Virus record (IMG/VR): IMGVR_UViG_3300028666_000303
Span: 1 to 21,846 of that record
Length of the DNA stretch: 21,846 bases
Strand: one strand, 5' to 3'
From: a virus
Of the stretch, positions 5,662-21,846 are shown piece after piece. How positions within the stretch are numbered: position 1 is the first letter of the stretch; the number at the start of each line of letters is the position of its first letter. The notes below the pieces were generated by a model. That model was not told the DNA's origin. It did no database searches and saw only the letters and a program-made list of their open reading frames with translations. The position numbers were made by a program, and so were the translations under genes.

Positions 5662-6396
5662 ATGTCTTCCAACATCCAGTTAAAAACTACAATAGACTTG
5701 ACCAGTAGGTTTATCTATAATGCCCCTCTGCTCTACGTGAACAGCGGGGCATTGGCGTATTCAATCGGGGATTGGGTGCGCCAATTCCTGTTGGCTCCTC
5801 CTTTCTCTTGGAGATGGAATAGAGCATTCGCTAAGCCTATTGTGTGCCAGCCGGGGGTAGCCGACTATACAGTTAGTATACCAGACTTCGGTTGGTTAGA
5901 AAAAGCAACTGTAGTTTTTCCTCCCGATACCAGCGGGAATAACCCCCTTATCTCGAAAGAACTTACCGTCCAGCAAGCTCTAATTGGGGAAACTATGCTA
6001 GGACAACCGGCCTTTATCTCCACTGTTGGCGACGATAACAACGGAAACATTACCTTCCGATTGATGATGGTTCCGGATAAGGCTTACACTCTGAACATGA
6101 TTTACCAGAAATCTGCTCCTTCCTTTGGGGCGGTAACTGATACTTGGGCACCTATCCCCGACTATTACTCCTACATCTACAACCAAGGATATTTAGCTAA
6201 GACTTACGAATACAAGGGCGACGAAAGGTTTGCCTTTGCTCACATGGAGTTTCTGAAGCAGGTTGTGGCAGCTAACGAGGGATTGTCTGAGACAGACAGA
6301 AACATATTCTTAGGACCCCATCTTAACTACTTACGCGAGAACCAGAGCGTAGGTCAGACAGGATCGCTAGGTCGTCAAGGAAGGTCAGGGCAGTAA
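5662..6396 (+). CDS. Neck/connector-like virion protein, copy 1
   Basis: A 244-residue protein with a helical first third (SIGDWVRQFLLAPPF) leading to the signature S-WRWN (W50, W52), then a PDFGWLEK motif (W78) and a beta-rich centre. It ends with helical YNQGYLAKTYEYKGDERF and a disordered, Gly/Gln/Arg-rich tail. The partial gene at the right edge keeps the WRWN and GWL motifs at the same spacing, so they are paralogues. Proteins of this kind occur between head genes and fibre genes of short-tailed phages, suggesting a head-tail or tail-hub adaptor. That role is inferred. The start follows AAGGA (5650-5654) with 7-nt spacing, and its stop overlaps the next ATG. Confidence 0.6.
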   Translation: MSSNIQLKTTIDLTSRFIYNAPLLYVNSGALAYSIGDWVRQFLLAPPFSWRWNRAFAKPIVCQPGVADYTVSIPDFGWLEKATVVFPPDTSGNNPLISKELTVQQALIGETMLGQPAFISTVGDDNNGNITFRLMMVPDKAYTLNMIYQKSAPSFGAVTDTWAPIPDYYSYIYNQGYLAKTYEYKGDERFAFAHMEFLKQVVAANEGLSETDRNIFLGPHLNYLRENQSVGQTGSLGRQGRSGQ

Positions 6397-6836
6397 TGGC
6401 TACGATACAAGAAAATCTTTTAGCTGCTCAGATTCCTCCCAACGTGTTTGTGGCGGGACCCTCCAATGGTAAAGGTGCGGCCAGCATCCGGAGACTATCG
6501 GCCTACGATCTTACCAGAATTTTTCCGGGGCTAGTCGTCCAGTTCGATGCGAACGATAACGCCTACTTTGACATAACCGGAGGAGGAATCCTCGGGAATA
6601 TCACAGCAGTTATTGCTGGGGTTGGTTTGTCTGGTGGGGGCACAAGCGGGGCGGTTACTCTCAATCTGGGGATTCCTATTTCCGTAGCGCACGGGGGAAC
6701 GGGAACTTCGTCTCCGAGTTTGATAGCTGGTAGCGGAATCTCCATTACAGGAGCTTGGCCCGACCAGACTATCACTAACACTGGAGCTACTGCTGGCCTC
6801 GACTTTACGCAAGCTTTCCTCCTTATGGGGGCATAA
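6396..6836 (+). CDS. Short tail-fibre-type protein
   Basis: A 146-residue protein starting within the preceding stop (TAATG). After a 60-residue N-terminal part it has the Gly/Thr/Ser-rich pattern typical of phage fibre shafts. Examples are GVGLSGGGTSGAVTLNLG, a VAHGGTGTSSPSLI segment (the GGTG motif recurrent in fibres) and SGISITGAWPDQTITNTG. This resembles, in miniature, the repeats of the large fibre two genes downstream. Its probable role is a fibre base or adaptor joining the connector to the large fibre. It ends in a hydrophobic AFLLMGA tail. Confidence 0.65.
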   Translation: MATIQENLLAAQIPPNVFVAGPSNGKGAASIRRLSAYDLTRIFPGLVVQFDANDNAYFDITGGGILGNITAVIAGVGLSGGGTSGAVTLNLGIPISVAHGGTGTSSPSLIAGSGISITGAWPDQTITNTGATAGLDFTQAFLLMGA

Positions 6837-7165
6837 TGGCAGCGATCATAAGAGTACTAGGCCAAGTCTACCCAGCCGCTAACACAGAAACCACTTTGTA
6901 CACATGCGGGACAACTTCGGCAGTTATATCAACAATCAATATATGCAACACCAGTCCGTCCGCAGCAGATTCTTTTACCGTAAGAATATGTATAGCAGGG
7001 GCGGGAGACACTAACTCCCAACTGTTAGCCTACTTAGTAAATCTTCCTCCGGGGACTTTTCTCCCTGTGACGGTTGGGCTGACTGTAGCGAGTACAGATG
7101 TTATCAAGGTTTTGGCACTCAATGGAACGTGCTCATTCCAGCTTTTCGGGCAAGAAAATAGTTAA
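6836..7165 (+). CDS. Small beta-sandwich virion protein
   Basis: A 109-residue protein coupled to both neighbours by TAATG junctions. The sequence runs as RVLGQVYPAANTETTLYT, then STINICNTS, a FTVRICIAGAG strand, LPPGTFLPVTVGL and a final CSFQLFGQE. This order (GQ..PA..T.T.LYT...ST..ICN...F.V.....) is a pattern often seen in small structural proteins beside phage fibres. It carries four cysteines despite having no signal peptide. Structural role likely; precise position in the virion unknown. Confidence 0.65.
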   Translation: MAAIIRVLGQVYPAANTETTLYTCGTTSAVISTINICNTSPSAADSFTVRICIAGAGDTNSQLLAYLVNLPPGTFLPVTVGLTVASTDVIKVLALNGTCSFQLFGQENS

Positions 7166-10100
7166 TGGCGAATAACCCATATCCTCCGTTTACAGACGTA
7201 GCTAATGCCAATGCCATCCAAGGCAGCAACTTCGCTACGTCTACGGGGACTATTGTTCTTTCGGGGAGCAATATTACTATCTCTACTGGGGCTAGTAGTA
7301 TTCAGATTATCGGTCCTCCTGCCGGGGGATTCACCCTAAACGGAACTTCTTCTAGTGCTTCAATCTCCGCAGGCGCGGGGATCGGTATTGGCCAAGCCGC
7401 CAGCACCATCACGATTTCTGCGTCTGTACAGACGTTCTTGCAAAGTATCACAGCGTTAGGCAACACTACCCTAAGTTCTTCGGGAACCTTCTCTGGACTG
7501 CTCAACGTCTCCGGAGCCGGAATTGTCAGCGTTGGTGGGGGAGCACAAAGCCTAACAATCTCTGCTTCTCAATCTATTCAAACTCATAGCCTGACTGCGT
7601 TAGGAAATACTACTTCAAGTTCTTCAGGAAGTTTCAACACTCTCCTGAACTTCTCTGGAGCCGGAATTGCGTCAGTCGGTGTGGGTAATGGAACCGTTAC
7701 CATTTCTGTTCCGGCCCCGGCTGCGACCAATGTGGTCACGTCTCTCAATGGATCAAATGGAAGCCTTTCGATCTCAGCAGGGGCAGGCATTGGGATCGGC
7801 AACGCGGCAAGCACCATCACGATCTCCGCATCCGTGCAGACCTCATCGATCTCCTTAACTGCGTTAGGAAACACCACCAGCAGTTCATCCGGAACTTTCT
7901 CGAATGTACTGAATTTTTCCGGAGCCGGAATCGCCTCTGTTGGAGTTGGGAACGGTAGTGTTACTATCTCGGTTCCAGCACCCGCTGCTACCAATGTAGT
8001 TACAAGTCTAAATGGTTCCAATGGGAGCCTATCTATCTCTGCCGGGGCCGGGATTGGAATCGGACAAGCTAATAGCACGATTACCATTTCTGCTAGCAAC
8101 CAGACTAATACTCTGAGTTACTTAGCATTTGCCTCCATGACAACGGCGTTAAACGGGTCAACAACAGGAACCGCAGCTACTTTTAGCGGACCGTTGGTGA
8201 TAGTCGCCGGAAACCAAATAACGATTTCTCAAAACACAGGCATTGGTACAAATAGTACTTTGTCTAGTGGCAGCAATGCTTTAGTTATTTCCGGTCCTTC
8301 TTTCAGCGCAGGCGGAGGTCTGGCTGTTACTACCGGATCGGTAGTCTCTTACTCCATTACAAACCACGTTTCTAGTGTAAACGGGTCAAGTGGAACTTTG
8401 AGTATTTCTGCCGGGGCTGGCATCGGCATAGGTCAGGCTGCGTCAACTATCACCGTCTCTGCTTCAGTGCAGACTTACTCACACAGCATCACCGCGTTAG
8501 GAAACACAACAGTAAGTTCATCTGGAACGTTTTCCGGATTGCTTAACATCTCGGGCGCGGGTATCATCAGTGTGGGTGGTGGGGCGCAAAGCTTAACGAT
8601 CTCCGCTACAACCCCATCAGTTGTAACTAGCCTGAACGGGTCAAACGGAAGCTTATCAATTTCTGCGGGAGCGGGAATTGGTATTGGGCAAGCTGCGTCC
8701 ACTATCACGATCTCAGCGTCTGTCCAGACTATATCTCAGTCATTGACTGCTCTTGGTAATACCACTAGCAGTTCATTCGGGACGTTTGCCGGGTTATTGA
8801 ATTTCTCCGGGGCTGGTATAGCTTCGGTAGGTGTGGGCAATGGCAGTGTCACAATCTCCGTGCCTGCTCCGGCTGCTACCAACGTAGTCACGTCCTTGAA
8901 CGGGTCGAACGGGAGCTTGTCGATCTCCGCAGGGGCGAATATCGGCATAGGGCAAGCCGCTAGCACCATTACTATCTCGGCGTCTAGCTACTCCACGTTA
9001 GTATCGATCTCTAGCATCGCGGGAGGAACTACTTCCGGAACAGCCAACACCGCTTCGTCTACAGCCTTTGGGTTCGTTGCTGGAAATAACATCACGTTAA
9101 GCCAGCTATCCACCAACCCTACCATCACGATCATCGGTCCTACCCCCGCAGGAGGGGCCGGGTTCACCCTCAATGGTACATCCTCTAGCGCGTCGATCTC
9201 CGCAGGGGCTGGTATTGGTATCGGGCAAGCTGCTTCTACCATCACCATATCCTATTCCGGTACCTCCAACTTTACTGGAATTAGCCTCAGTGGTAATACC
9301 ACCACGGCGGTAGGCAACAGCGCGACAGCTATCACGGGCAACAGTGTAATACTTAGCGCGGCAGGCATTCTATCGTTATCCGCCACCACGAATGCCAGCG
9401 GAGGTACGATTACTTTATCAGTACCAGCCCCTCCGACAGCCACCAACTTCAGCCTGAATGGAACATCTAGCAGCGCATCCTTAGTAGCAGGGGCCGGGAT
9501 CGCGTTTAACTCCGGCGCAAGCAGCATCAGCGTATCGTACTCCGGAACTTCTAACTTTACCGGAATCAGTTTCAGCGGAAACACAACAACGCTAGCGGCC
9601 AACAGCGCGACAGCGTTCTCCGGCAATAGCTTGGTAATGAGTGTTGCAGGCATCTTATCCATGTCTGGAACAACCAATGCCAGCGGCGGAACCATAACTC
9701 TTTCTGTTCCGGCTCCTGCTGCTACGAACGTTGTTACGTCCCTCAATGGGTCGAACGGTAGTTTGTCTATCTCTGCCGGTGCTGGAATTGGAATAGGCAA
9801 TGCCGCTTCTACCATAACCATTTCGGCCTCTGTTCAGACCGCTTCGGTTTCTTTAACAGCCCTTGGTAATACAACCTCAAGTTCTTCTGGAACATTCACC
9901 AATCTCCTAAACTTTTCTGGCGCGGGTATCGCGTCGGTTGGAGTTGGCAATGGAAGTGTGACCATTTCAGTACCCGCTCCCGCCGCGACGAATGTGGTAA
10001 CTTCGTTGAACGGGTCTAACGGGTCTATGTCTATTTCGGCTGGTGCCGGAATCGGCATTGGGCAGGCTGCGTCTACTATCACGATTTCAGCCTCGGTGCA

Positions 10101-11730
10101 GACATTCTCTCATAGCTTGACGGCCTTGGGTAACACTACCATAAGTTCTTCGGGAACGTTTTCAGGTCTTCTAAACGTTTCCGGTGCGGGTATCATCAGC
10201 ATTGGGGGAGGGGCACAGAGCCTCACAATTTCTGCCACTACTCCTTCCGTGGTTACTTCGCTTAATGGATCGAGCGGTAGCCTATCTATCTCTGCTGGTG
10301 CTAACATCGGTATTGGGCAGGCTGCTTCCACGATTACTATCTCGGCAAGCAACCAATCGGTATTGTATTCTATCGCCTCGATTGCTGGCGGAACTACTTC
10401 CGGAACCGTAAATACCGCGTCTTCAACGGCCTTCGGTCTTGTCGCCGGTCCGAACATCACTCTTAGCCAGCTATCCACTAGCCCAAATATCACCATCAGC
10501 GCAGCGGCAGGCGGAGGCGGCGGAGGATTCACACTTAACGGAAGTTCTTCTAGCATGTCTTTGGTCGCTGGAAGCAACGTGAGTTTGAGTTCGAACCTTA
10601 GCACTATCACCATCAACGCAGGGATCGGAAGAATCAGTGTTCTTCAAAACTACTCCCTCGCTTTGGCGGGAGGTTTAGTAGCCTCTTCCTCGGGAACCGT
10701 TACCGGGCTAGGAAGTTCTCTGTTTCTACAGAGACTCAAACTCCCCTCAGGAATGAACCTCAGCGAAGTTGATGTGGCTTTGGGCCTGACCTTCCCTGCC
10801 ACAAACCAAGGCGCGGGAACTCTTACTCGTTCTTTCGTCGTATATTCGTTTGGAAATTCTACCTCGCTAGCGTCGGTGCTAAGCACCTCAGGAACCTCAG
10901 CGTGGACAACGGGAACCTCTACAGTTGGAGCTTCTACCTCTCTGTCCCAGTTCCAAGGTGGTTGGTCGCTGCCTCAGGTTCATCCCCTTACATTCGCTTC
11001 TACGTTGCTAGCAGCGGGAGAGTATGTCGTCGGCCACATCTTCAACTTTGCTCAGGTGACAAGCACTTGGACGGTTGGAATTTATGGGGCGCAAAACAGC
11101 TTAATCCAGACAACATCCCTCACCGCGTTTACTGCTTCTCCTGTTGGGGCGAGTGCTCTTTCCTCAGGCGGGTTAGCGGGAGTGTCGGCGCATACTGCTT
11201 CTACTTCAACAGCCATTACTGCCTTTACCGTAGCCCCTACCCTCGCATCGGTGTTCAGCAATGCTGGAACGTTGCAATTCAGATATGTTTCGCAGTCCTC
11301 TGCTACCGCTGCCGGATTCGCCAGCACTACACAGACTACGGCTGCTTCTCTGTCGGGATCACAGGGAGTTCACTGGTCTACGCTACCCACGGCTGCTACT
11401 GTCCTGTCTTCAGCGGGAACGGCAGGAGTTTCTGTGTTAGGAAGCGGAGGTCTCTCGGCTGGGTCATTTATCGGAACATCTGGATCGGTGGCAGGTATCA
11501 GTAACATCAACACCGGCCAAGTTAACCCCTTGTCTCCTACAGTCCCCGGATTTGTCTTTATTGGCACCGGATCGACCACAGGCGTGAATGCGGCGGTTCC
11601 CCCTTACTTCCTCGCTGGAATTTTCAGCACAGGGGCCGTTCCAATATCTATCGCCCTGTCAACTACAGCCATTACCTTTACCGGCTCCGCGCAAGCGGCT
11701 CAGCCGTGGATGGCACTGATTGGATCGTAA
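7165..11730 (+). CDS. Large repetitive tail fibre protein
   Basis: A 1521-residue protein of mainly Ser, Gly, Thr, Ala, Ile and Val with no cysteine that I can find. Residues 1-54 are an N-terminal attachment part. Residues 55-1152 hold about twelve modules of roughly 80-125 residues built from recurring strings such as SLNGSNGSLSISAGAGIGIG, ASTITISASVQT, LTALGNTT and LNFSGAGIASVG. Residues 1154-1521 are non-repetitive and aromatic-richer (SFVVYSFGNSTS, SQFQGGWSLPQVHPLTF, EYVVGHIFNFAQVTSTWTV), suiting a receptor-binding or trimerising head. The architecture of base, beta-repeat shaft and distal head is that of a long tail fibre. It is coupled by TAATG at both ends. No protease or S74 chaperone motif is visible. 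Confidence 0.8.
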   Translation: MANNPYPPFTDVANANAIQGSNFATSTGTIVLSGSNITISTGASSIQIIGPPAGGFTLNGTSSSASISAGAGIGIGQAASTITISASVQTFLQSITALGNTTLSSSGTFSGLLNVSGAGIVSVGGGAQSLTISASQSIQTHSLTALGNTTSSSSGSFNTLLNFSGAGIASVGVGNGTVTISVPAPAATNVVTSLNGSNGSLSISAGAGIGIGNAASTITISASVQTSSISLTALGNTTSSSSGTFSNVLNFSGAGIASVGVGNGSVTISVPAPAATNVVTSLNGSNGSLSISAGAGIGIGQANSTITISASNQTNTLSYLAFASMTTALNGSTTGTAATFSGPLVIVAGNQITISQNTGIGTNSTLSSGSNALVISGPSFSAGGGLAVTTGSVVSYSITNHVSSVNGSSGTLSISAGAGIGIGQAASTITVSASVQTYSHSITALGNTTVSSSGTFSGLLNISGAGIISVGGGAQSLTISATTPSVVTSLNGSNGSLSISAGAGIGIGQAASTITISASVQTISQSLTALGNTTSSSFGTFAGLLNFSGAGIASVGVGNGSVTISVPAPAATNVVTSLNGSNGSLSISAGANIGIGQAASTITISASSYSTLVSISSIAGGTTSGTANTASSTAFGFVAGNNITLSQLSTNPTITIIGPTPAGGAGFTLNGTSSSASISAGAGIGIGQAASTITISYSGTSNFTGISLSGNTTTAVGNSATAITGNSVILSAAGILSLSATTNASGGTITLSVPAPPTATNFSLNGTSSSASLVAGAGIAFNSGASSISVSYSGTSNFTGISFSGNTTTLAANSATAFSGNSLVMSVAGILSMSGTTNASGGTITLSVPAPAATNVVTSLNGSNGSLSISAGAGIGIGNAASTITISASVQTASVSLTALGNTTSSSSGTFTNLLNFSGAGIASVGVGNGSVTISVPAPAATNVVTSLNGSNGSMSISAGAGIGIGQAASTITISASVQTFSHSLTALGNTTISSSGTFSGLLNVSGAGIISIGGGAQSLTISATTPSVVTSLNGSSGSLSISAGANIGIGQAASTITISASNQSVLYSIASIAGGTTSGTVNTASSTAFGLVAGPNITLSQLSTSPNITISAAAGGGGGGFTLNGSSSSMSLVAGSNVSLSSNLSTITINAGIGRISVLQNYSLALAGGLVASSSGTVTGLGSSLFLQRLKLPSGMNLSEVDVALGLTFPATNQGAGTLTRSFVVYSFGNSTSLASVLSTSGTSAWTTGTSTVGASTSLSQFQGGWSLPQVHPLTFASTLLAAGEYVVGHIFNFAQVTSTWTVGIYGAQNSLIQTTSLTAFTASPVGASALSSGGLAGVSAHTASTSTAITAFTVAPTLASVFSNAGTLQFRYVSQSSATAAGFASTTQTTAASLSGSQGVHWSTLPTAATVLSSAGTAGVSVLGSGGLSAGSFIGTSGSVAGISNINTGQVNPLSPTVPGFVFIGTGSTTGVNAAVPPYFLAGIFSTGAVPISIALSTTAITFTGSAQAAQPWMALIGS
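7327..10620 (+). repeat. About twelve tandem protein repeats (fibre shaft), diverged at DNA level
   Basis: Modules of mostly 80-95 codons recur with near-identical protein cores but freely different synonymous codons. For example, the SLNGSNGSLSI core is encoded differently at about 7741, 8005, 8635, 8893, 9739 and 10003. A few modules deviate: one longer insert at 8101-8390, and two consecutive GTSNFTGIS modules at about 9259 and 9541. Two related IAGGTTSGT modules occur at about 9015 and 10384. Boundaries are approximate. Confidence 0.8.
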
Positions 11731-12404
11731 TGGCACTTCCTTATATTGTTCAATCCTACACTAGCGGTGTCCCCACTCCGGGTAATTTAAACCCAATTAC
11801 CATGACCGGAGTGACTGCCGGAAACTTGCTTATTTGTGGCATGTTCTCAGGCGGAGGAGCAGGAGGCACGCTAACGTGTACAGACTCCCAAGGCAATAAT
11901 TGGGCAACAAAAAGCACCGTGAATTTAGCGACGGACTCCGATACTATCACCGTGCTAGCAACCATTGCTTCGGCGACTGGAAATTGTGTTGTTACCTTTT
12001 ACGTTAACGCGGTCACTCCTAGTGGTGGGCTAAGAGCCGTGTTATACGAGGCTGCTAATTCCACTACTACCCTAGACGGAGGAGCAGGCGCAACGTCCAA
12101 CACAACGGGAGCCACTACCCTTGATAGTGGTCCGTTGATAACTGGAGCGCATAACGGCTTGTTATTTTCAATTGGCGCGACGGATAACGCGACGAACGCC
12201 ACTATAGGTCCTCTTCGGGGGTGGACAAACCCACAAAACTTTGGGGATACCTCGGACCCCAACCCAATCGGATTAGCCCAAGTATCTATCGCCCCATACC
12301 CCGGAACATACGAAGCAAAAAGCACAACCCTCGCTAGCGCCGAACAAGCCACAATTCTTGTGTGTTTCTTATCCGGTGGTCGAACTTACATGATAGCTAA
12401 ATAA
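11730..12404 (+). CDS. Beta-sandwich virion protein, hypothetical
   Basis: A 224-residue protein starting at the ATG that overlaps the fibre stop (TAATG, 11728-11732). A GTG at 11706 in the same frame would only add residues inside the fibre gene, so I reject it. The sequence has the pattern PITMTGVTAGNLLICGMFSGG, TCTDSQGNNWAT, a valine-rich strand and a long Thr/Gly/Asn-rich second half. The CTDSQGN-W motif resembles concanavalin/jelly-roll-like modules in secreted and virion proteins. It has four cysteines and no signal peptide. It may be a fibre tip or side-chain binding protein coupled to the large fibre. Unrecognised beyond that. Confidence 0.55.
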   Translation: MALPYIVQSYTSGVPTPGNLNPITMTGVTAGNLLICGMFSGGGAGGTLTCTDSQGNNWATKSTVNLATDSDTITVLATIASATGNCVVTFYVNAVTPSGGLRAVLYEAANSTTTLDGGAGATSNTTGATTLDSGPLITGAHNGLLFSIGATDNATNATIGPLRGWTNPQNFGDTSDPNPIGLAQVSIAPYPGTYEAKSTTLASAEQATILVCFLSGGRTYMIAK

Positions 12405-12415
12405 ATATGCGTCTT

Positions 12416-12420
12416 AGGAG
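12416..12420 (+). promoter_or_regulatory. Ribosome-binding site that sets the glycosyltransferase-like start
   Basis: AGGAG lies 4 nt before the ATG at 12425. The in-frame ATG at 12407 has only AT-rich sequence before it, so 12425 is preferred. Confidence 0.6.
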
Positions 12421-12424
12421 CACA

Positions 12425-13138
12425 ATGAAAAGCAAAAACAACGAGTCAGATTTTGGGTATCACAACACTAACCTGACTCAATCAATCGATAGACTACACC
12501 GTGGCCAGACTTACAAAGATTTGTCTACGGTATGGATTACTATAACTCGCGGGAGTCTTAAACCCAAAGTGGTTTCGTCTTGGATGGGCTTGATGAAGCC
12601 GATGAACCAACCCTTCTTCGGTCCGTTATTTATCGAGAACGACGAAGTAGGGGTAGGGTATCAAAAAGCTTTTGAGACAGTCCTCGACCATCCCGAACTT
12701 AGTAAATGGAAATACATCCTTACCGTAGAGGAAGATAATCTCCCCCCTCAAGACGGACTGATGCGGTTATACGAAAGCATCGAAGGGTTCGACGCCGTGG
12801 CCGGGTTGTACTGGACTAAAGGCGCAGAAGGCCAGCCAATGATTTATGGCGATCCTTCGGTTATGCCAAGAAACTTTGTACCCCAAGTCCCCCGTATAGA
12901 CACGATACAACACTGCAACGGGTTAGGGATGGGCTTTAACTTATGGAGGATAGACTCCTTCAAAACAAAACTCAAGGACATGCCCCGACCTTGGTTTAGA
13001 ACTATCCAAGAAACGGGGAAAGCTTTTACCCAAGACTTGTGGTTCTTTAATGAAGCCGCTAAGTATGGGTATAAGGTAGCTTGCGACACCAGAGTTAAGG
13101 TGGGGCATTTAGACATTTCTACAGGAATGGTTTGGTAA
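12425..13138 (+). CDS. GT-A-type glycosyltransferase-like protein
   Basis: A 237-residue protein that resembles phage-encoded family-2-like glycosyltransferases. Near the N-terminus is a hydrophobic strand (VWITITRGS). Next comes KYILTVEEDNLPPQD, where E102-E103-D104 sits where the nucleotide-sugar/metal-binding acidic motif is expected. Later features are GFDAVAGLYW, CNGLGMGFNLWRID, a PWF segment, TQDLWFFNEAAKYGYKV (acceptor-side acidic region) and a late VGHLD histidine (H228). The usual DxD is replaced by an EED variant. The family moves a sugar from an activated donor to a glycan, protein or DNA base; the acceptor here is unknown. It is followed by a methyltransferase-like gene, suggesting shared modification of a virion or host surface component. 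Confidence 0.65.
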   Translation: MKSKNNESDFGYHNTNLTQSIDRLHRGQTYKDLSTVWITITRGSLKPKVVSSWMGLMKPMNQPFFGPLFIENDEVGVGYQKAFETVLDHPELSKWKYILTVEEDNLPPQDGLMRLYESIEGFDAVAGLYWTKGAEGQPMIYGDPSVMPRNFVPQVPRIDTIQHCNGLGMGFNLWRIDSFKTKLKDMPRPWFRTIQETGKAFTQDLWFFNEAAKYGYKVACDTRVKVGHLDISTGMVW

Positions 13139-13160
13139 GAGCGCGAAAGGCTCAGAGGAT

Positions 13161-13634
13161 ATGAAAAAGAATAAAGTCGAAGTCATCGATTTACTCGATC
13201 TTAATACAGTCAAATTTGATTTAACCGGCAAGTGGCCTTATGCAGACAAGTCTGTGAAGGAAATCAACTGCCTACACAAACTGGAATACATTCCGGGGAA
13301 ACTCAGAATTCCAGTTATGGAAGAAGCGTGGCGGGTTCTCCAAGACGCCGGTAAGCTCAACGTCATAGTCGCTTACTGGACTTCTCCCAGAAGCATACAA
13401 GACCCGCTAGCGGAGTGGCCTCCTTTTTGCGAACAATCCTTCCTTTATTTCAACAAGGGATGGAGAGAGCAGAACGCCTTACCCCCTATTAAGTGTGACT
13501 TTGACTTCACATACGGGTATCAAACTGATCCGGAAGCCGCAGGAAGAAGTGCGGAAACGCAAAGCTTTTGGGTAAAACACTACTTAAACACTGTACTTGA
13601 TTTACAGTTGGCGTTGGTGAAACGCCCTCTGTAA
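13161..13634 (+). CDS. SAM-methyltransferase-like protein lacking the N-terminal SAM motif
   Basis: A 157-residue protein matching the middle and C-terminal part of class I (type 11-like) methyltransferases. It has FDLTGKWPYADKSVKEI (residues 19-35), the NCLHKLEYI motif in place of the usual H-x-LEH, then EEAWRVLQDAGKLNVIVAY (54-72, the post-motif 'r-LkpGGkl' strand). The glycine-rich SAM-binding motif I that normally precedes this is absent, and the 22-nt gap upstream has no room for it. It may be a natural short form, need a partner or be inactive. A start Shine-Dalgarno AAAGG lies at 13146-13150. Confidence 0.55.
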   Translation: MKKNKVEVIDLLDLNTVKFDLTGKWPYADKSVKEINCLHKLEYIPGKLRIPVMEEAWRVLQDAGKLNVIVAYWTSPRSIQDPLAEWPPFCEQSFLYFNKGWREQNALPPIKCDFDFTYGYQTDPEAAGRSAETQSFWVKHYLNTVLDLQLALVKRPL

Positions 13635-13643: not shown

Positions 13644-13943
13644 ATGAATTTTTTAGCAAAACTACTGACGTTTCTTAGACAGGCGTACTCCGATGATGGG
13701 ACTCCTTCGAGCAGCCGACTGCTAACCAGCTTTCTAGCTTTGGTATGCTCGGGAGTTCTTGTCCTTGTGGCCGACCATCTGGTTAGGATTACGGACAACG
13801 CGCAGCTAGCGATCTGGCTATCCAACCTTCCCTACGTTATAGGAGCGTTAGTATTTTTCTTTACTGCGCCTTATGGGGTAAACAGAGGGTCCACCAGTAT
13901 CACGGATGTTCTTAACATCTTCAAAGGTAAAAAGAATGAATAA
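13644..13943 (+). CDS. Two-helix membrane protein, holin-like
   Basis: A 99-residue protein with a short amphipathic N-terminus, a polar loop (SDDGTPSSSR), and two hydrophobic segments at about 26-44 (SFLALVCSGVLVLV) and 57-76 (WLSNLPYVIGALVFFF). It ends in a lysine-rich tail (FKGKKNE). Size, two-helix topology and charged tail fit holins, which permeabilise the inner membrane at lysis, but no endolysin is nearby in the window. Its last 8 nt overlap the start of the next gene (ATG at 13936). An alternative is a membrane helper for the exported proteins encoded downstream. Confidence 0.5.
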   Translation: MNFLAKLLTFLRQAYSDDGTPSSSRLLTSFLALVCSGVLVLVADHLVRITDNAQLAIWLSNLPYVIGALVFFFTAPYGVNRGSTSITDVLNIFKGKKNE

Positions 13944-15498
13944 GTTACTTCTATTTCTTTTGTTCCCAGTGCTAGGTTTTTCCCAAACAGCACAGAGATG
14001 GAATGTGGCCATTCAGCCTACCTCGGGGAGTAACTTCTCCGTGGTCATCCCTAACGCGCAGGTGTCGGTGTGTACGTGGAACGATCAGTTGTCTTGCGAT
14101 TCTCCCAACTTAGTTATATATGCCGACACGGCGTTAACCCAGCAAATAGATCAACCGCTCCAAGCTAATGCCGCAGGCACCTATTTTTACTACGTGCAGG
14201 CAGGCACCCACTTAGTTGAGAAAGTTTGCGCTCCGTATAACCAATGTAGTTTCTACGACATATACGTTGGGTCTTCTGCCGGTGGTACCGGGAGTAGCCT
14301 GTGCGGTCCTCTCCCCGGAGACGTAACCTCAACGCGATGCGGAACAGATGCCCTCAGTCATTTAACAGGCAGCAACCTCAGCCTCCTAAGTGGTTTCGGA
14401 TTTGAAACGGTTTCTTATGTCAGCACGGTAGGGGAGTCGTCCTTCTCCGAAGAAATTGTAGGTGTCGGCGACCAATCAGGGTCTCATATAACAAATGGAG
14501 TTGACATAGTTGGTATCGGGGACAGTTCGGCGATACAATTCTCCGCTTCTACTTTCGACATTATAGGAATCGGGGATGGATCGGCTAACACAATTGGGGG
14601 TCAAAGCTCCGATATTATCGCAATTGGAAACGGCTCGGGGTCGCACATCGGAAGCAATGTCGATGATGTGGTTGCAATTGGAAACGGAGCCGGGGCGAAT
14701 CTTGTCTCGACTTCTTCAGATGTAGTTGGTATAGGAAATGGCTCCTCCTCCTCTGTGAACTCTACAGGGACGCTAACAATCGTAGTCGGAATAGGAGTTG
14801 GTGCTGCTTCTAATCACGGAACAGGCGTGTTCAATAACGTCGTAGGAATTGGAAATGGCTCCGGGTCTGAAAGCGATCCCACCTTCTCTTCTGACTACAC
14901 AGACGTAATTGGTATTGGAGACGGGGCTGCTGGGGCAATGGGAACCGTTTCGGACGTAATCGGAATAGGACACAGACCTTTAATCTGCAATACAGGCTCA
15001 GAGGTAATCGCGCTCGGAACGTTAGCTCTTGGAGGGTATTACAACGGGGCTAATTGCGAGGGTGTTGCCGGGAATGCCGGTAGCAACGATATCGCAATCG
15101 GGCAGGACGCCTTGGCTGGTAACACGACCGGAACTAATAACGTGGCGATAGGCACCATGTCCGGAGCGAACGGGTACACCGCCTTCAACTCCATTGGAAA
15201 CTCGAATACCACAGGCTCTCATAATACTTGGGTTGGCGATTACTCGGGGCCAAATACAACTTCGCAACTAACGAACACGATTGCTCTTGGGTATCAAGCC
15301 TACAACACAGTATCCAATCAGACAGTAATCGGAAACAACTCTATTACCCAAGCCGTCATTTATGGGGATGTTGAAATCAACGGGGGCACGAATACTGTGT
15401 ACCGTTGCGCCACTAGCGGATCGCTCCCAGCGGGGGCCTTGACTATCGTTTCCGGAAGTTGCGGCACGACCACCGATACCGGGTTGAGAGTTCAATAA
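13936..15498 (+). CDS. Exported fibre/adhesin-like protein with YadA-like beta-roll repeats
   Basis: A 520-residue protein. Residues 1-17 are a classic Sec signal peptide (MNKLLLFLLFPVLGFSQ), cleavage expected before Q17. The ATG at 13936 is chosen because it begins the signal peptide exactly; upstream codons lie in the holin-like gene. Residues 20-113 form a domain shared with the next gene, with four cysteines (C46, C54, C98, C104) in both. Residues about 161-450 are about 12 repeats of the [IV][IV][GA]IG[ND]GS type, like the left-handed beta-roll heads of trimeric adhesins such as YadA and of some phage fibres. A C-terminal cap has C491 and C509. Ten cysteines in all suggest disulphides. 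Probable role is a trimeric surface-binding protein acting outside the cytoplasm. Whether it enters the virion is unknown. Confidence 0.65.
   Translation: MNKLLLFLLFPVLGFSQTAQRWNVAIQPTSGSNFSVVIPNAQVSVCTWNDQLSCDSPNLVIYADTALTQQIDQPLQANAAGTYFYYVQAGTHLVEKVCAPYNQCSFYDIYVGSSAGGTGSSLCGPLPGDVTSTRCGTDALSHLTGSNLSLLSGFGFETVSYVSTVGESSFSEEIVGVGDQSGSHITNGVDIVGIGDSSAIQFSASTFDIIGIGDGSANTIGGQSSDIIAIGNGSGSHIGSNVDDVVAIGNGAGANLVSTSSDVVGIGNGSSSSVNSTGTLTIVVGIGVGAASNHGTGVFNNVVGIGNGSGSESDPTFSSDYTDVIGIGDGAAGAMGTVSDVIGIGHRPLICNTGSEVIALGTLALGGYYNGANCEGVAGNAGSNDIAIGQDALAGNTTGTNNVAIGTMSGANGYTAFNSIGNSNTTGSHNTWVGDYSGPNTTSQLTNTIALGYQAYNTVSNQTVIGNNSITQAVIYGDVEINGGTNTVYRCATSGSLPAGALTIVSGSCGTTTDTGLRVQ
14416..15285 (+). repeat. 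IG[ND]GS-type beta-roll repeats
   Basis: Irregular repeats of about 16-32 codons centred on VVGIGNGS-like octets, e.g. IVGIGDSS, IIGIGDGS, IIAIGNGS, VVAIGNGA, VVGIGNGS, VIGIGDGA. They change toward the C-terminus into DIAIGQDALAGNTTGTNN-type repeats common in phage fibres. Codons vary among repeats. Boundaries are approximate. Confidence 0.65.
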
Positions 15499-17786
15499 TG
15501 AATTTAAAAACACTTCTATTTCTTTTACTGTTCCCTGTCATGGGCTTCTCCCAGTCAGCGGAGCGGTGGAATACTGCCCTGATTCCCAAAGGTTCGGGCA
15601 GCAACTTTGCGTCGGTAATCCCTAACGCAAAAGTTTACGTCTGCGTATATAACAGTCAGCTAGCGTGTAACGCTCCTCAGCCTATCTATACCGATCCCAC
15701 TTTAACCTCGACGCTTACCCAGCCGATTACGGCTGCTGGAAACGGTGTCTACCAGTACTACATCCAATCTGGAACAAGAGTGGTGGAGAAGGTATGCGCC
15801 CCTTACAATCAGTGCAGTTTCTATGAAGTGTATGTGGGGTCTTCGGGAGGCGGAAGTTCGTCGGGATGTACCCCATCGTCTCCATCTGCCGGGTACTTTG
15901 TTTACTGGAATGGAACCCAATGCGTTACTGGCTTTGTCGATGAAGGGGCCACCTCAGCAAATACAACCACAACTACAGACCAGAATATCACGCTAAACGC
16001 TACCAACACAGGGAGCGGAAAAGTTATTATCGACTCGGCGGGTGAAGACGGAATCATACTATGCACCGACCCCACTTTGTTTGTTAACTGCCCTACAGGA
16101 GGATCGGGAGGTACCATAACCCTCGATGCGGGGACTGGTATTTTCATGCAAGCTAAGGGGTCAGTTCAGGTTGACTCTGCTGCTGGTTTTACGGTGGATG
16201 ATGTAAGCGTAGAGGGGGTGCAACTAAATTCCACTGGGGGGCCGGTCGAGTTAAGCGCAAATGGTTCTTCAGATTCGATCTCTATAGATGCCCAACACGG
16301 TATCAGTCTGTCTGACGCCGGAAGCATTGGGATTTCTATCGATTCCAATACTGGTCCTATTGCGTTAGGAGGGGCAGACTTATTCATACATTCGAGCGCA
16401 ACTCCGGGTTCCGGAACAAACTTTTTGACTATTAACTCGGCTGGGTTAGTAGGAAGCTCTGCTTCGGCAGGCATGACTTGGCCAGCCGCTGCTGGTATCC
16501 CCTGCTACTCGGGAAGTTCTAGCTGGTGTACTAGCTACAGCAACACCAATACCATCCCCTCTAACTATGTTCCCACTCTAAACCAAAACACAACGGGATA
16601 CGCTGCTGCCATTGCGGGGGGAGCGTTAGGCTCTTTGCCGTACCAGTCAGCGGTTAACACAACCTTGTTCTTAGCAAGTCCTACAACTAATGGACATGCT
16701 TTTGTTCACGGATGGAACACTTCAACCGGATCAGCAACAGCCCCTACCATCTTCGATCTCGGGACATATCTAGGGGCAAACATTGGCCAAGCTTCTCCTA
16801 TCGTTGTTACGCCGTCTACTTTGGGTGTAACCATATCTTGCCCGACTTGCGGAACCGCAGGAGGCGGAACAAGCTTAGGGGTAAACGGGGGAGGAACCTT
16901 AGGGTCCGCTAACCTCAATGCCACGTCTCCAGTAGCCGATGCTAACTACCTCGCGCTGCTCCCTAAAATTTCTGGAGCTAACATAATCGTTGAAGCTCCT
17001 TACGGTACGTCTTCCGGATTCGGAGTTCTAGAGTGCGGAAGCGGAACCACATGCTCTGGTGGCGTCATCACCGTGACCGGAAGCGGATTCCCAATCACGA
17101 TAGGTTCTACCTCCATAGCCGCTAGCTCGACTACTACCGTTATCGCTGGGTTAACCATAGATGGGGTAACTCCTACCATCATGGGGTATCTAGATGCTAC
17201 CTCTAGCATCCAAACTCAGCTAAACGCAAAACAAGCCAGCCTCGGGTATACTCCTGCTCACTCCGGAGCGAACTCGGATATCTCCTCTTTATCTGGATTA
17301 TCTACGCCTCTCAGTGCTCCTCAAGGAGGCTTAGGCGCAGCTTCTCTTACTGGGTATATATTCGGAAATGGGTCCAGTGCTGCCACTGCTTCTGCGACTA
17401 TCCCCGGTTCTTCTATCTCTGGAAATATCGCAGGCAATGCCGCTAATTTAAGTGGGACTCCTACTCTCCCGAACGGGACTTCTGCTACCACGCAAGCGGT
17501 TAACGATAACACTACCAAGTTGGCCACTACCGCGTACGTCAAGAGTCCGGGTATCATAACACCGACAGCAATTACGCTCTCTGGGACTGGGCCTACTACC
17601 GTAGGGATGCCTCCAACTACCTTCTCTGTTCTCTCTAGTGCGTACCCTTGCGCTAGCAACACGGGAAGAATAGCTACTGTGTCTGACTCTACTACCCAGA
17701 CATGGGGTTCGGCTTACACAGGTGGCGGTGCTTTATTCGCTGCTGTGGTGTGCGACGGAAGCTCCTACACGGTATGGGGAAAATAA
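15498..17786 (+). CDS. Exported tail-fibre-like protein, paralogous N-terminus with previous gene
   Basis: A 762-residue protein starting at the ATG inside the preceding stop (TAATG). Residues 1-19 are a Sec signal peptide ending GFSQ. Residues 22-116 match the previous protein's N-terminal domain, including the shared string VEKVCAPYNQCSFY and all four cysteines. The rest uses ordinary phage-fibre modules: a beta-prism-like 150-360, then NAKQASLGYTPAHSGANS, GNGSSAATASATIPGSSISG, a TTKLATTAYV segment, and a C-terminal RIATVSDSTTQTW...GGG...VVCDGSSY cap. Sixteen cysteines, mostly in close pairs (such as CPTC and ECGSGTTC), suit an oxidising compartment. A fibre body behind a signal peptide is unusual. 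It may be a secreted adhesin, or the hydrophobic N-terminus may serve as a virion anchor. Confidence 0.65.
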   Translation: MNLKTLLFLLLFPVMGFSQSAERWNTALIPKGSGSNFASVIPNAKVYVCVYNSQLACNAPQPIYTDPTLTSTLTQPITAAGNGVYQYYIQSGTRVVEKVCAPYNQCSFYEVYVGSSGGGSSSGCTPSSPSAGYFVYWNGTQCVTGFVDEGATSANTTTTTDQNITLNATNTGSGKVIIDSAGEDGIILCTDPTLFVNCPTGGSGGTITLDAGTGIFMQAKGSVQVDSAAGFTVDDVSVEGVQLNSTGGPVELSANGSSDSISIDAQHGISLSDAGSIGISIDSNTGPIALGGADLFIHSSATPGSGTNFLTINSAGLVGSSASAGMTWPAAAGIPCYSGSSSWCTSYSNTNTIPSNYVPTLNQNTTGYAAAIAGGALGSLPYQSAVNTTLFLASPTTNGHAFVHGWNTSTGSATAPTIFDLGTYLGANIGQASPIVVTPSTLGVTISCPTCGTAGGGTSLGVNGGGTLGSANLNATSPVADANYLALLPKISGANIIVEAPYGTSSGFGVLECGSGTTCSGGVITVTGSGFPITIGSTSIAASSTTTVIAGLTIDGVTPTIMGYLDATSSIQTQLNAKQASLGYTPAHSGANSDISSLSGLSTPLSAPQGGLGAASLTGYIFGNGSSAATASATIPGSSISGNIAGNAANLSGTPTLPNGTSATTQAVNDNTTKLATTAYVKSPGIITPTAITLSGTGPTTVGMPPTTFSVLSSAYPCASNTGRIATVSDSTTQTWGSAYTGGGALFAAVVCDGSSYTVWGK

Positions 17787-20700
17787 TGAAAGCCAAAATT
17801 CTCGTACTGTTTTTACTCCTGCCCCTGTTATCTCACTCCCAAACGCTTAAGTCCCTAGCAACGGCCCGTGGGTTTACGTTTGGTTGCGGAGACACAGACC
17901 CGTCCATATTCAACAACGATTCTACTTTTAACAGCCTTGTCGCGGCTCAATGCAACTCTATTGAACCCGGTAACGTCATGAAGCAGAACGCGATGGAGCC
18001 ATCGAACGGAAGCTATGACTTTTCTCAGGCCGATCTAGTCATGAACTATGCGGCTGCGAATTCCCAGACCGTGACAGCAACTGCGCCTGTCTGGGATAAT
18101 GCGAGCTACGGGGGAGGAACGCCTTCTTGGGTTTCTGGGTTAAGCTCCGGCGCACTCACGACGGCTCTCCAGAACTACGTCGCACAGTTCATGACTCACA
18201 TGCACACCAACTATCCGGGGCGCATGAAGCAGATTGCCCTCGTCAGTGAGTCTAGTCACCAGTGCCCAAATAACACTTACAATCCCGGATATGGCACTGG
18301 GCCGTATTGTTCTATCTTAGGCCCGGACACGTCTTCGAACGCTTATGCTCGAAATGTTTCTGGTTTAACCTATTTTCCTGAGTACGTCACTGTGGCCTAC
18401 ACACAGGCTCGGGCAACCGACCCCACGGCCCAGCTTTGCTACGATGACTGGGGATGGGAGGGCAGCGGGGCTAGTGGGTACCAATACTGGCTAGTTGCTT
18501 ATCTCAAGAGCCGAGGGTTAGTTGATTGTGTGGGTCTGGAAGGACAGTGGCAATATCAAGTCATACCCTCGAACGTACCGTCCTCTTCAGCTATAGCTTC
18601 GACTATAAGTGCTTATCAAGCTCTTGGGGTAACTGTTTACTTTTCTCAGGTTCAGTTAGGCATCCATACTAACGGCGCAAACAACACCGTCCCGAATTCC
18701 TATACCTCTACAGTTCCGGCAGATTTAACGACGCAAGCAAACACCTACTCATACTTACTAAGCGCGTGTCTCGCTAATCCCTCAACTTGTAGTGCTTTCT
18801 ATGTGTGGGGAATAGGGGATAAATGGGCCTTCATCGATGCCCCTAGTCCATACGGGGTTGGCGCTCCTCAGATTTACGACGCCAATTATAACGCAAAAGC
18901 TGCGTATACGTCGATCAAAAATGTGTTGAGTAGCGGGATAACTACCTATACTTTGTCCACCACAACGACAGGAACTGGGTCAGGTACCATATCGGGCTGC
19001 GCTGGTAACTATGCGGCAGCGGCTTCTTACTCCTGCACGGTCACTCCTACTGGAGGGTCCACGCTATCCAGCGTAACGGGATGCGGAGGGTCGGGCACAA
19101 CCACTTACTCCGGAACCATGCCTGCCTCTGCTTGCACGGTCACAGCTACCTTTACCGCTGGTGGAGGAGGCGGAGGCTGCACCCCATTGGCCGCTACCCT
19201 TAACCCATCCGATGTTCTGGCTGCGCTGAACTCTGTATCAAGCTGCACCACAGCGACGGTCAATCTTCCCGTGGGAAATGTTAACTGGACAACTGGCTTC
19301 ACTTACACAGTGCCTAGCAATTTGACCAACTTAACAATCCAAGGTCAGACGGTGGTTAATTGTTCTGGAACTCCGGGAAACGCCGGGGCTACGTGCGCTT
19401 CGGTAACAGACTCTTCTGTAATCAGCGATACCTACCAGAGCAACACCTCGCTCATAGTTATCAACGCTAACACCCAAGCTAGCGCAGTCCTTCGAGTTAC
19501 TGGACTGACTATGGCGGGTGGGGCTGTGGGCGGAACGTACTCCAAGTACAACGGCTTTATTGAAATCTACAGCGGATCGTCTCAAGTTCGGTACGACCAC
19601 AATCACTGCAATATGGCTCCGTACTCCCCCAACTCAAACTCCTCGGTTTGCTTCAAAACCTTTGGAGCTATAGTAGGCGTGGCGGATCATAACTTCTTCG
19701 AGTTAGCTCCTAACTCTGGAGGTTTCCCAACTCAACAAACCTTCTCTTTCGGAATTTCCGTCTTTGGTGCCTATAACGACACCATTGGAAACGGAGACGG
19801 AACCTTCTCTCACCCTACCGCGTGGGGTAGTTCTTCTACATTTTATGTGGAATCAAACACCTTTATCGGAGGATACACCGACGATTGCGGCGGAGCGGGT
19901 GCCATTGGCATTAGGAATAATACCATACAAGGAAGCTACACCCAGACCCACGGCACTAAATCTGCCGCAGGGCCTGATCGCGGATGCCGACTTTACGAGG
20001 TATACCACAACTATATCACAGGCCCTACCTCTGGAATCGGTCCTTTAGACGCCGTGTTTGGTTCTAAGAACGCAACCGGATTGGTCTGGGGTAATAACCT
20101 GATATCTGGATTCTACAGATACACCAACTTATGTACAGACAGAAACTCTTGCGAGTCTCCGGAAACCGCCCCTCCGAATGGTTGGGGGTACTGCGGAACG
20201 GTTCACGGTGGTTCTGACTCTTCATGGGATGGTAATAACAATGCTTCTACGGGATGGCCGTGCCTCGATGGTATTGGTCGTGGTCAGGATGTTCAAGCTC
20301 TGAACGGGCAAGCATTCCCCAACCGTCTTAATTCCATAACTGGAACTGCGGCTTGGTCTCACCAGTACTTAGAACCTATGTACTTCTTCATGAATAGTGG
20401 TACCCCTCAAGCGGGAACGTTTGCGGAAGTAGGCTCTACAGATACTTCTAATAACAGAGACTACTACTACGATTGCGGGTCGCTCAACAGCACTTGCTCT
20501 GGTGGGTTCACAGGCGCGGCAGGAACCGGGTACGGAACCTTAGCCAATCGCCCAGCCACTTGCACGGCAGGCGCGGGAGGCACATACGCGACAAGCCCTA
20601 CAGGAAGCTACGGCGTGGCCTACTTTGCCACAGATGCCAACAGCGGTAATGGCGAGCTTTACGTTTGCTCTAGCACTAACACTTGGACTGCGATATACCA

Positions 20701-20818
20701 ACCTTATGTTTACCCTCACCCGTTAGTGAGTGGTACAATTCCCACCCCAACTTCCCCATCAATTTCAGGAAGCTTATCCCTCACCGGATTAGCTCAACTC
20801 ACCGGAGGACCTCAATAA
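17786..20818 (+). CDS. Exported GH10-like / InlB-repeat / beta-helix fusion with altered catalytic site
   Basis: A 1010-residue protein starting at the TAATG overlap; an upstream in-frame start at 17702 only extends into the previous gene. Residues 1-19 are a signal peptide ending SHSQ. Residues 28-380 resemble a glycoside hydrolase family 10 barrel (endo-xylanase-type). They include IEPGNVMKQNAMEP (60-72), PVWD (101-104) with W103, LVSES with acid/base-like E155, GLEGQ (250-254) and VWGIGDKW (340-347). At the nucleophile strand the usual T-E-L-D is S287-Q288-V-Q290, and other subsite residues are replaced too. Residues 386-458 are a bacterial InlB/flg_new_2-like repeat (YSCTVTPTGG, YSGTMPASACTVTATF). 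Then comes a polyglycine linker and a right-handed beta-helix-like domain (about 465-930). It ends with a YPHPL motif (976-980) and a Ser/Pro/Gly tail. Likely polysaccharide-binding rather than hydrolytic. Confidence 0.65.
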   Translation: MKAKILVLFLLLPLLSHSQTLKSLATARGFTFGCGDTDPSIFNNDSTFNSLVAAQCNSIEPGNVMKQNAMEPSNGSYDFSQADLVMNYAAANSQTVTATAPVWDNASYGGGTPSWVSGLSSGALTTALQNYVAQFMTHMHTNYPGRMKQIALVSESSHQCPNNTYNPGYGTGPYCSILGPDTSSNAYARNVSGLTYFPEYVTVAYTQARATDPTAQLCYDDWGWEGSGASGYQYWLVAYLKSRGLVDCVGLEGQWQYQVIPSNVPSSSAIASTISAYQALGVTVYFSQVQLGIHTNGANNTVPNSYTSTVPADLTTQANTYSYLLSACLANPSTCSAFYVWGIGDKWAFIDAPSPYGVGAPQIYDANYNAKAAYTSIKNVLSSGITTYTLSTTTTGTGSGTISGCAGNYAAAASYSCTVTPTGGSTLSSVTGCGGSGTTTYSGTMPASACTVTATFTAGGGGGGCTPLAATLNPSDVLAALNSVSSCTTATVNLPVGNVNWTTGFTYTVPSNLTNLTIQGQTVVNCSGTPGNAGATCASVTDSSVISDTYQSNTSLIVINANTQASAVLRVTGLTMAGGAVGGTYSKYNGFIEIYSGSSQVRYDHNHCNMAPYSPNSNSSVCFKTFGAIVGVADHNFFELAPNSGGFPTQQTFSFGISVFGAYNDTIGNGDGTFSHPTAWGSSSTFYVESNTFIGGYTDDCGGAGAIGIRNNTIQGSYTQTHGTKSAAGPDRGCRLYEVYHNYITGPTSGIGPLDAVFGSKNATGLVWGNNLISGFYRYTNLCTDRNSCESPETAPPNGWGYCGTVHGGSDSSWDGNNNASTGWPCLDGIGRGQDVQALNGQAFPNRLNSITGTAAWSHQYLEPMYFFMNSGTPQAGTFAEVGSTDTSNNRDYYYDCGSLNSTCSGGFTGAAGTGYGTLANRPATCTAGAGGTYATSPTGSYGVAYFATDANSGNGELYVCSSTNTWTAIYQPYVYPHPLVSGTIPTPTSPSISGSLSLTGLAQLTGGPQ

Positions 20819-21300
20819 TGCGTTCCAAACTTTTTCTAGCTATCGTGGTTGTTTCACTTTTTACTGGGTGTGCCGCTCATAGCCAAATTCCCCCTACAAC
20901 ACACACCGTGACTCTTACGGTAAATTCGTCGGCTCCATCGGGGAGCACATGGGTTGCCAGCAAGGCGGTTCTTACGGCTGGGGCTACCTCGTGCCCATCC
21001 ACAAGCGGGACGACTTACGTTCGAATAAACGCTACCGCACAGGTCTCGACTACTTTTATCGACCCCACTTCTTCCGGTCAAACCGTCTGCGAGATTATGC
21101 AGTACATTGACGCTGGCGGAGCGGTTAGTCCCCCTTCGAACGCGGTAGGTCCTTATGCGGTGCTTGCCAATCCTACTGCTCCTACGATCAATGGACAGCA
21201 AGCTAATGCCGAGGACAAGCCGGTTGCGATACCCGCGCCTCTACCAACCCTTGCTAAGAACACAACAACAACTCCTACCATCACAGCGATTGTAAACTAA
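20818..21300 (+). CDS. Small exported beta protein, possible lipoprotein
   Basis: A 160-residue protein starting in the TAATG overlap with the previous stop. The N-terminus MRSKLFLAIVVVSLFTGC is a signal peptide. It contains a lipobox-like F-T-G-C18 (F at -3 is atypical) but also a later AHS|Q site matching the other three exported proteins, so lipid attachment is uncertain. The mature part (about 25-140) looks like one Ig/fibronectin-like beta domain (VTLTVNSSAPSG, YVRINATAQVST) with two cysteines. A Pro/Ala/Thr-rich, low-complexity tail follows. Small exported lipoproteins in phages can act in superinfection exclusion (known for T5 Llp); here that is only a hypothesis. Confidence 0.5.
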   Translation: MRSKLFLAIVVVSLFTGCAAHSQIPPTTHTVTLTVNSSAPSGSTWVASKAVLTAGATSCPSTSGTTYVRINATAQVSTTFIDPTSSGQTVCEIMQYIDAGGAVSPPSNAVGPYAVLANPTAPTINGQQANAEDKPVAIPAPLPTLAKNTTTTPTITAIVN

Positions 21301-21846
21301 TGCCAGCAATTCCAAATCTCCAACCAATAAGCACAATCACCCTTGAGGAAGTAGTAAATTACACTCGTAGTTTTGCCGAGTGTAATCCAATACTTCCTGC
21401 GGGAGGATACAGCTACGAGCCTGCCTTGACTTTTGCAAACGATGTTTTGCAGAAGATTTTGGCGCAGAACTTAAACTGGAGATGGAATGCCAGCTATGTT
21501 CCGCTGTTCCTCACTAACGCTTTACAACAAGACTACATCACCAACTTAACTGATATAGGATGGCTTACTTCCGGATTCAGAATCGACATTAACAACAACA
21601 CTAACACAAATAACCTGTGTCCTAAGCCGTTGTTCTTAATGGAGATAAACCGAGATATGGGGCTTACTCCTTATCAGGGTAACTCCGCCTCTGTCTGTTT
21701 CATTCCCAACAACCAGTGCATGTTTGGAACTTGGGCAGCTAACACACAGTACTCGTGCGGGTACGGGACCTCTGGGGCAACATCCACCCCTATCCAGCAA
21801 ATAGTAGATGCGAACGGCAACATGCTGTTATTAGACACGTCTATCA
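21300..21846 (+). CDS. Neck/connector-like virion protein, copy 2 (partial, runs off right edge)
   Basis: An open frame from the ATG in the TAATG junction (21298-21302) to the window end, 182 codons, with no stop. It repeats the landmarks of the protein at 5662-6396: a helical DVLQKILAQNLNW leading to WRWN (W60, W62), then 22 residues later a D-x-GWL motif (W88). The WRWN-to-GWL spacing is the same in both copies. Beyond the motif it is beta-rich and contains CPKPLFLMEINRDMG. It is divergent from copy 1 but clearly paralogous. A second connector or adaptor-like protein after the exported cassette suggests a second adsorption module to the right. Confidence 0.6.
   Translation, partial: MPAIPNLQPISTITLEEVVNYTRSFAECNPILPAGGYSYEPALTFANDVLQKILAQNLNWRWNASYVPLFLTNALQQDYITNLTDIGWLTSGFRIDINNNTNTNNLCPKPLFLMEINRDMGLTPYQGNSASVCFIPNNQCMFGTWAANTQYSCGYGTSGATSTPIQQIVDANGNMLLLDTSI

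Follow-up and report, generated by a model that had tools for sequence, protein, structure and literature searches.

Tail fibres and tailspikes are, in the textbook account, made and assembled in the cytoplasm, and the tailspikes of phage P22 bind spike-less particles in vitro, so that late docking of a spike is physically plausible. The WceF protein of Pantoea stewartii carries an export signal (of the twin-arginine, or Tat, type) in front of a P22-like head domain and a beta-helix, and is a glycan-active spike without a virion (PMC7949094). Here we describe four consecutive genes, starting at 13936, 15498, 17786 and 20818 and encoding products P0001 to P0004, in IMGVR_UViG_3300028666_000303, a linear soil virus record of 21.8 kb (21,846 nucleotides) whose whole length was analysed and is referred to below as the window. 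The reading to which we lean, with some reserve, is that these genes, in a podovirus related to Tunturi_3, constitute a cassette of tailspikes or tail fibres exported by Sec, with products that would mature outside the cytoplasm and dock at lysis.

Signal-type N-termini of the four products

The four gene starts are real, each overlapping the previous stop by 1 to 8 bases. Reading of the open reading frames (ORFs) together with a home-made signal-peptide scorer predicts Sec signal peptides in P0001 (13936..13983, + strand; MNKLLLFLLFPVLGFS, cut before Q) and P0003 (17786..17839, +; MKAKILVLFLLLPLLSHS, cut before Q); a further one is predicted in P0002 (15498..15551, +; MNLKTLLFLLLFPVMGFS, cut before Q), for which the scorer set the cut two residues later, and the predicted signal of P0004 is MRSKLFLAIVVVSLFTGCAAHS, again cut before Q. 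The scorer looks for a basic start with a hydrophobic core behind it, for small residues at positions -3 and -1, and for a continuation that is not hydrophobic, and its cut-off of 8.5 was chosen after the gap between scores had been seen. P0001 to P0004 score 10.1, 10.1, 11.4 and 11.5 respectively, and all other predicted genes of the window, upstream virion genes included, score at most 4.7; when the signal-free genes of the 112-kb metagenomic relative L003/G001 are added, the ceiling is 5.3 as against 10.1-11.4 for P0001-P0003. By this measure the first three products show the Sec/signal peptidase I pattern, with a basic n-region, a hydrophobic h-region, small residues at -1 and -3 and no transmembrane continuation.

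Only four of the 68 six-frame ORFs of at least 60 amino acids in the window exceed the cut-off, and they are exactly the four genes named, as an earlier note on this DNA had proposed in assigning signal-type N-termini to these positions and none to the upstream virion genes. In a distant phage clade 29 of 1187 ORFs (2.4%) do so, and against this background four consecutive genes have a p of about 6e-6, four out of 21 one of about 1.5e-3. The scorer recovers the P22 and N4 spanins as well as lipoprotein-like genes from phages of Bacteroides and Flavobacterium, and along 50 kb of a Granulicella plasmid it picks out six proteins of secreted type, several with a cut between A and Q as in the phage proteins; it finds signals on none of 22 fibre-like proteins of at least 250 amino acids (from T7, P22, N4, crAss001, B40-8, 11b and the read parts of Tunturi 4 and 5).

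A tailspike head-binding domain behind the predicted cut

P0001 (13936..15498, +; 520 amino acids, 10 cysteines) and P0002 (15498..17786, +; 762 amino acids, 16 cysteines) are export-tagged tailspike- or fibre-type proteins that have in common an N-domain of about 100 residues directly behind the predicted cut, and bodies after it that are unrelated; the C-terminal part of P0002 resembles tail fibres, and P0001 has a relative in L003 that is 61% identical over residues 14-118. The domain occupies 15552..15872 (+) in P0002, where its AlphaFold model has a pLDDT of 86 and a pTM of 0.76. In P0001 it lies at 13984..14289 (+), contains four cysteines, and is assigned as a head-binding (virion-docking) domain from its membership of the N-domain alignment and from the match of the model of its P0002 homologue to P22-type domains. 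The closest structural matches of the model are the tailspikes of Pan3 (9vyg_o, Z 9.6), P22 (1lkt and 2vky, Z 8.5-8.6), Sf6 (8.4) and Pam1 (8.3), values that exceed most unrelated rows, a few of which reach 7-8; a viral structure library returns tail spike and pectate-lyase spikes.

Sequence comparison points the same way. A profile of the N-domain finds the Pan3 tail spike at E 6.5e-4 and that of Pam1 at 0.016, with P22 at just 0.11, and the N-domain of an export-tagged protein from phage contig L012 matches the tail spike of Xanthomonas phage PBR31 at E 3e-13. In PBR31 the domain starts at residue 2, without a signal, and in ordinary tailspikes the homologous domain begins within about 10 residues of the start codon and has no signal in front of it. 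On the strength of the model, P0001 and P0002 are each predicted to carry, immediately after the S-Q cut, a head-binding domain of the P22 tailspike type. It was by way of L012 and Tunturi_2 that this domain could be connected with ordinary tailspikes. Searches of Pfam, PHROGs and NCBIfam were uninformative for P0001 and P0002, tblastn with P0002 or its N-domain in 50,697 phage records produced no more than weak fibre-repeat or chance matches, and the diversity among 11 aligned N-domains was too great for scanning.

Independent support for export

Fibre-like proteins were collected from all fetched phage loci, 33 of them with a signal and 178 without. Median cysteine content is 1.93% in the former and 0.52% in the latter (p 3.8e-16), and within the near clade alone 2.03% and 0.51%; this test of composition is statistical only, since the ordinary tailspikes of P22 and MTx reach 1.2-1.5% cysteine overall. 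The shared N-domain contains four cysteines in ten members and two in two, never an odd number, and the ordinary head-binding domains of PBR31, ctn9Y15, P26218, MTx and P22 contain none; in X14 the first 110 residues include two, one of which lies past the domain. The motif [ASGTC]Q occurs close to the cut in 30 of the 33 signal-bearing proteins, as against 48 of the 178 others. We did not count a profile in which the N-domain appears solely on signal-bearing proteins, as the loci had been fetched with that family and the profile spans the signal. In one paper, phage diversity-generating target proteins are reported to lack signal peptides.

The signals themselves diverge as signal peptides would. 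That of P0003 is 33% identical to the signal of its homologue in the baseplate-bearing phage L143, the next 90 residues are 91% identical, and both signals still score as such, a pattern that, judged from the sequences, fits real signal peptides, unlike a specific docking motif. Within the window the P0001/P0002 pair is an exception (88% identity in the signal and 60% in the mature part), as would be expected for a recent tandem copy.

These observations bear on the possibility, which the earlier note had also raised, that the hydrophobic N-termini are an attachment device: left uncut, they would stay on proteins that fold in the cytoplasm, and would anchor in the tail or meet the membrane at assembly or ejection. 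Cytoplasmic assembly is the norm for tailspikes, and phage lysis proteins do have uncut signal-anchors, the spanins among them being picked up by the same scorer. Yet the segment varies freely with its signal features kept, nearly all of these N-termini end in signal-peptidase-like fashion with Q behind the predicted cut in most, the proteins are enriched in cysteine, and the lipobox-like cysteine in relatives of P0004 would make no sense in such a model. We regard this explanation as improbable. Export of the whole cassette, as the earlier note supposed, is well supported by the scorer, the cysteines and the diverging signals.

Occurrence in related and unrelated phages

The near podovirus relatives that cover the region (L003, L007/L022, L008, L024 and L103) have export-tagged spikes between or right behind two conserved neck genes, and in L019 the slot between the neck genes is empty. 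The 112-kb genome G001 has eight structural-operon genes with signals; its one other long spike-like ORF encodes a conserved tail-hub-like protein of 1799 amino acids. In L024 (2476-7047) and L099 (5564-10135) a second export-tagged spike gene, encoding 1523 amino acids, is found well away from the fibre slot, on the upstream side of the capsid gene.

The fibre locus of the cultivated podoviruses Tunturi 1 and 2 contains, by our scorer, five export-tagged genes (gp12, gp13, gp14, gp16 and gp17). Spike-like ORFs of at least 250 amino acids number four in these phages, all of them signal-bearing and all among those five genes, and the N-domain of Tunturi_2 gp12, whose mature N-terminus is predicted to read QTAAYPNG, is related to tailspikes. 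Their published annotations are hypothetical, tail fiber, pectin lyase/tail spike and virion structural protein, and the text of the Tunturi paper makes no mention of signal peptides. No relatives of Tunturi_2 gp12 or gp17 were found in viral contigs.

L143 possesses a baseplate, as indicated by wedge proteins (E 6e-44 and 3e-26), and carries a P0003/P0004-type cassette in tail-fibre position, directly after the baseplate genes. The window phage being podovirus-like, the finding suggests that unrelated phages have exchanged the cassette. The earlier note had advised looking for the cassette in related genomes, and the search thus yielded export-tagged spikes in the near relatives, in L143 and in Tunturi 1 and 2. 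A further large export-tagged family, with a mature N-terminus of the form QQPQ..., adjoins the L143 cassette (L143 3571-5988) and occurs in the distant capsid clade (L065; L068 18095-20008; L079 17206-20280). Directly 3' of the L143 cassette (11315-12157) is a peptidase-like gene with a weak match to phrog_16701 and a papain-like motif seen by eye.

P0003 and P0004

P0003 (17786..20818, +; 1010 amino acids) is an export-tagged protein with matches to the Pfam families GH10 (E 8.7e-44) and Flg_new_2 (E 6.8e-7), and is 78% identical to its homologue in L143. Its GH10 domain (17846..18922, +) retains the acid/base glutamate (VSE), but motif comparison shows the nucleophile glutamate replaced by glutamine (SQVQ for TE[ILV]D), and conserved histidines are also absent; it therefore lacks the pair of catalytic glutamates that marks an active xylanase. 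The L143 homologue has the same losses. Because of these shared losses, P0003 is more likely to be a glycan-binding pseudo-enzyme, predicted to be inactive, than a xylanase. The domain is 87% identical in the two phages (6058-7190 in L143), which are of different types, and may be described as a conserved pseudo-xylanase. Proteins equivalent to P0003 in relatives have GH30 and GDSL domains.

The GH10 and GH30 domains, together with the A-Q cuts, resemble secreted enzymes of Acidobacteriota, and could suggest that the cassette is captured cargo, host secreted proteins acting as carbon-degrading auxiliary genes with their signals retained and without relation to the virion. We consider this the least likely of the explanations weighed here: neither phage copy of the GH10 domain keeps its active site, P0001 and P0002 are spikes of a phage and not host enzymes, the bacterial genome collection yielded no relatives, and the cassette is located in the fibre locus.

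P0004 (20818..21300, +), of 160 amino acids, is putatively either a lipoprotein or a secreted protein that partners the spike cassette. The earlier note had seen a cleavage-like S-Q site in all four products; the site stands for P0001 to P0003, and in P0004 there is a lipobox-like LFTGC (Cys18), a relaxed fit to [LVI][ASTVI][GAS]C, from which lipoprotein export appears as likely as S-Q cleavage. Its relatives in L143 (VAGC) and L144 (AMAC) have a cysteine at the end of the hydrophobic stretch, which is absent in L003. A small signal-bearing gene directly behind a P0003-type gene is also found in L143, L144 and L145. The AlphaFold model of P0004 (pLDDT 40) is unusable. As for the body types proposed earlier, GH10 was found in P0003, a beta-helix in P0003 was not confirmed, and the Ig-like assignment of P0004 is weakly supported.

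Genome context and host

The major capsid protein of the window (983-1972) is 92% identical to that of L003/G001 and 36% identical to that of Tunturi_3, a cultivated podovirus of Tunturiibacter (Acidobacteriota). Because of this similarity and the A-Q sites, the host is probably a member of the Acidobacteriota. Two scans of the bacterial genome collection found no relatives of the N-domain, so the host could not be fixed through prophages. The capsid gene is in two ORFs around a homing-endonuclease-like ORF in L022 (8970-10714), L023 and L024 (8815-10639), probably a self-splicing element. Near the capsid gene lies a phosphoglycerate-mutase-like (histidine phosphatase) gene (2584-3183 in the window, 4531-5145 in L003, also in L008, L024 and others), which is kept across the near clade and matches phrog_12933 at E 1.9e-21.

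The variable fibre slot is bounded by two conserved neck/tail proteins, the 5' one at 5662..6396 (+; 37% identical to Tunturi_3 gp13) and the 3' one at 21300..21845 (+; cut off by the window end, 84% identical to L003 and 39% to Tunturi_3 gp12). Everything between them is variable cargo: signal-free fibre-like genes (6396-12404) come first, followed by small genes resembling glycosyltransferases and methyltransferases, a holin-like gene and lastly the four-gene cassette. In contrast to the exported cassette, the 1521-aa fibre-like repeat protein encoded upstream at 7165-11730 has zero cysteines and no signal. The glycosyltransferase-like and partial methyltransferase-like genes (12407-13634), just 5' of the cassette, perhaps serve host-surface or DNA modification. 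The holin-like gene (13644..13943, +) encodes a small membrane protein without a family match in profile-library searches, and recurs before the cassette in L007, L008, L019, L024 and L003. A scan for promoters and terminators returned chance level.

Discussion

While the identity of the cassette as tailspikes is well supported, the route by which its products would reach a virion is a proposal. Late in infection the products would be threaded through Sec, trimmed, and folded with disulfides in the periplasm, three of them having a signal-peptidase-I type signal ending at S-Q and P0004 one of lipoprotein or S-Q type. The trimmed P0001 and P0002 would start with the P22-type head-binding domain; at lysis the spikes would encounter the freed virions and use this domain to dock on their tails, and the resulting particles would recognise host-surface glycans. 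We favour docking after export because the head-binding domain is present and Tunturi 1 and 2 have no alternative spikes; the cassette also takes the slot in which Tunturi_3 carries fibres gp14-gp18.

Several points weigh against docking. WceF has its P22-like head domain behind an export signal without any virion, so the domain is no proof of docking (PMC7949094), and by analogy it can persist for folding. No head-binding domain is recognised in P0003 or P0004. The long signal-free fibre-like proteins of the window phage (7165 and 11730) could serve the virion, so that the exported set is possibly additional to them, and the related Tunturi_3 manages with signal-free fibres. An exported spike would, moreover, have to stay near the phage's own virions and bind them.

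The principal alternative, then, is that the products are exported and never join a virion, acting as free or surface-bound spikes that bind or modify host or matrix glycans, block superinfection or serve as decoys. It has the precedent of WceF with its Tat signal, head domain and beta-helix (PMC7949094), and gains from the GH10 and GH30 bodies, the possible lipoprotein nature of P0004 and the separate signal-free fibres of the window phage. Against it, Tunturi 1 and 2 infect and need a receptor-binding protein, yet have no other long spike-like ORF, G001 likewise has none beyond its tail-hub-like protein, and the cassette takes the position of ordinary fibre genes. We judge it unlikely, albeit clearly less so than the other two alternatives. 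The adhesion/glycan decoy module of the earlier note is not the best reading, given the head-binding domain in two members, the tail-fibre locus and the uniformly export-tagged spikes of Tunturi 1 and 2.

More broadly, and more tentatively than for the window phage itself, many unrelated Acidobacteriota phages, podovirus- and myovirus-like, may make receptor-binding spikes that are exported by Sec, carry disulfide bonds, undergo maturation in the periplasm and become part of virions no earlier than lysis. Such an extracytoplasmic assembly route for tailed phages is undescribed in the literature searched, and no report of Sec signals on tailed-phage spikes was found in the open-access full texts searched (subscription journals and preprints being outside the scope); the components are each known, and it is their combination and spread over unrelated phages that appear to be new. 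If the proposal is true, the last steps of virion assembly must take place outside the cytoplasm, disulfides and extracellular enzyme domains become available to spikes, and annotation changes for genes that in soil viromes now look like auxiliary genes or enzymes secreted by the host. With Tunturi 1 and 2 in cultivation, a direct test is feasible.

Comparison with known systems

The cassette resembles P22 gp9 and the Pam1 and Pan3 tailspikes in the fold of the N-domain, with weak but significant sequence similarity, in a modular body and in its position among tail genes; it differs in that those tailspikes have no signal peptide, and in that the closest ordinary domains are cysteine-free where the exported ones have two or four cysteines. 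In WceF, too, a P22-like head domain stands behind an export signal and belongs to a glycan-active spike, but WceF is a single bacterial gene in a polysaccharide locus, uses Tat and not Sec, and has no virion (PMC7949094). The cassette does not belong to that bacterial class, being part of a phage structural operon and having no relatives found in bacterial genomes. P0003 shares its domain and acid/base glutamate with GH10 xylanases, which keep the nucleophile and the conserved histidines that it has lost.

Among Acidobacteriota phages, the fibres gp14-gp18 of Tunturi_3 occupy the same slot by two conserved neck genes in a related podovirus, but unlike the cassette they have no signal, few cysteines and an N-domain that is not detectably related. 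The signal-free gp14 and gp15 were ruled out as simple homologues of the N-domain (hhalign probability 0.2%). Tunturi_1 and Tunturi_2 belong to a phage genus unrelated to the window phage, and their fibre loci have consecutive export-tagged spike genes with high cysteine content, as in the window.

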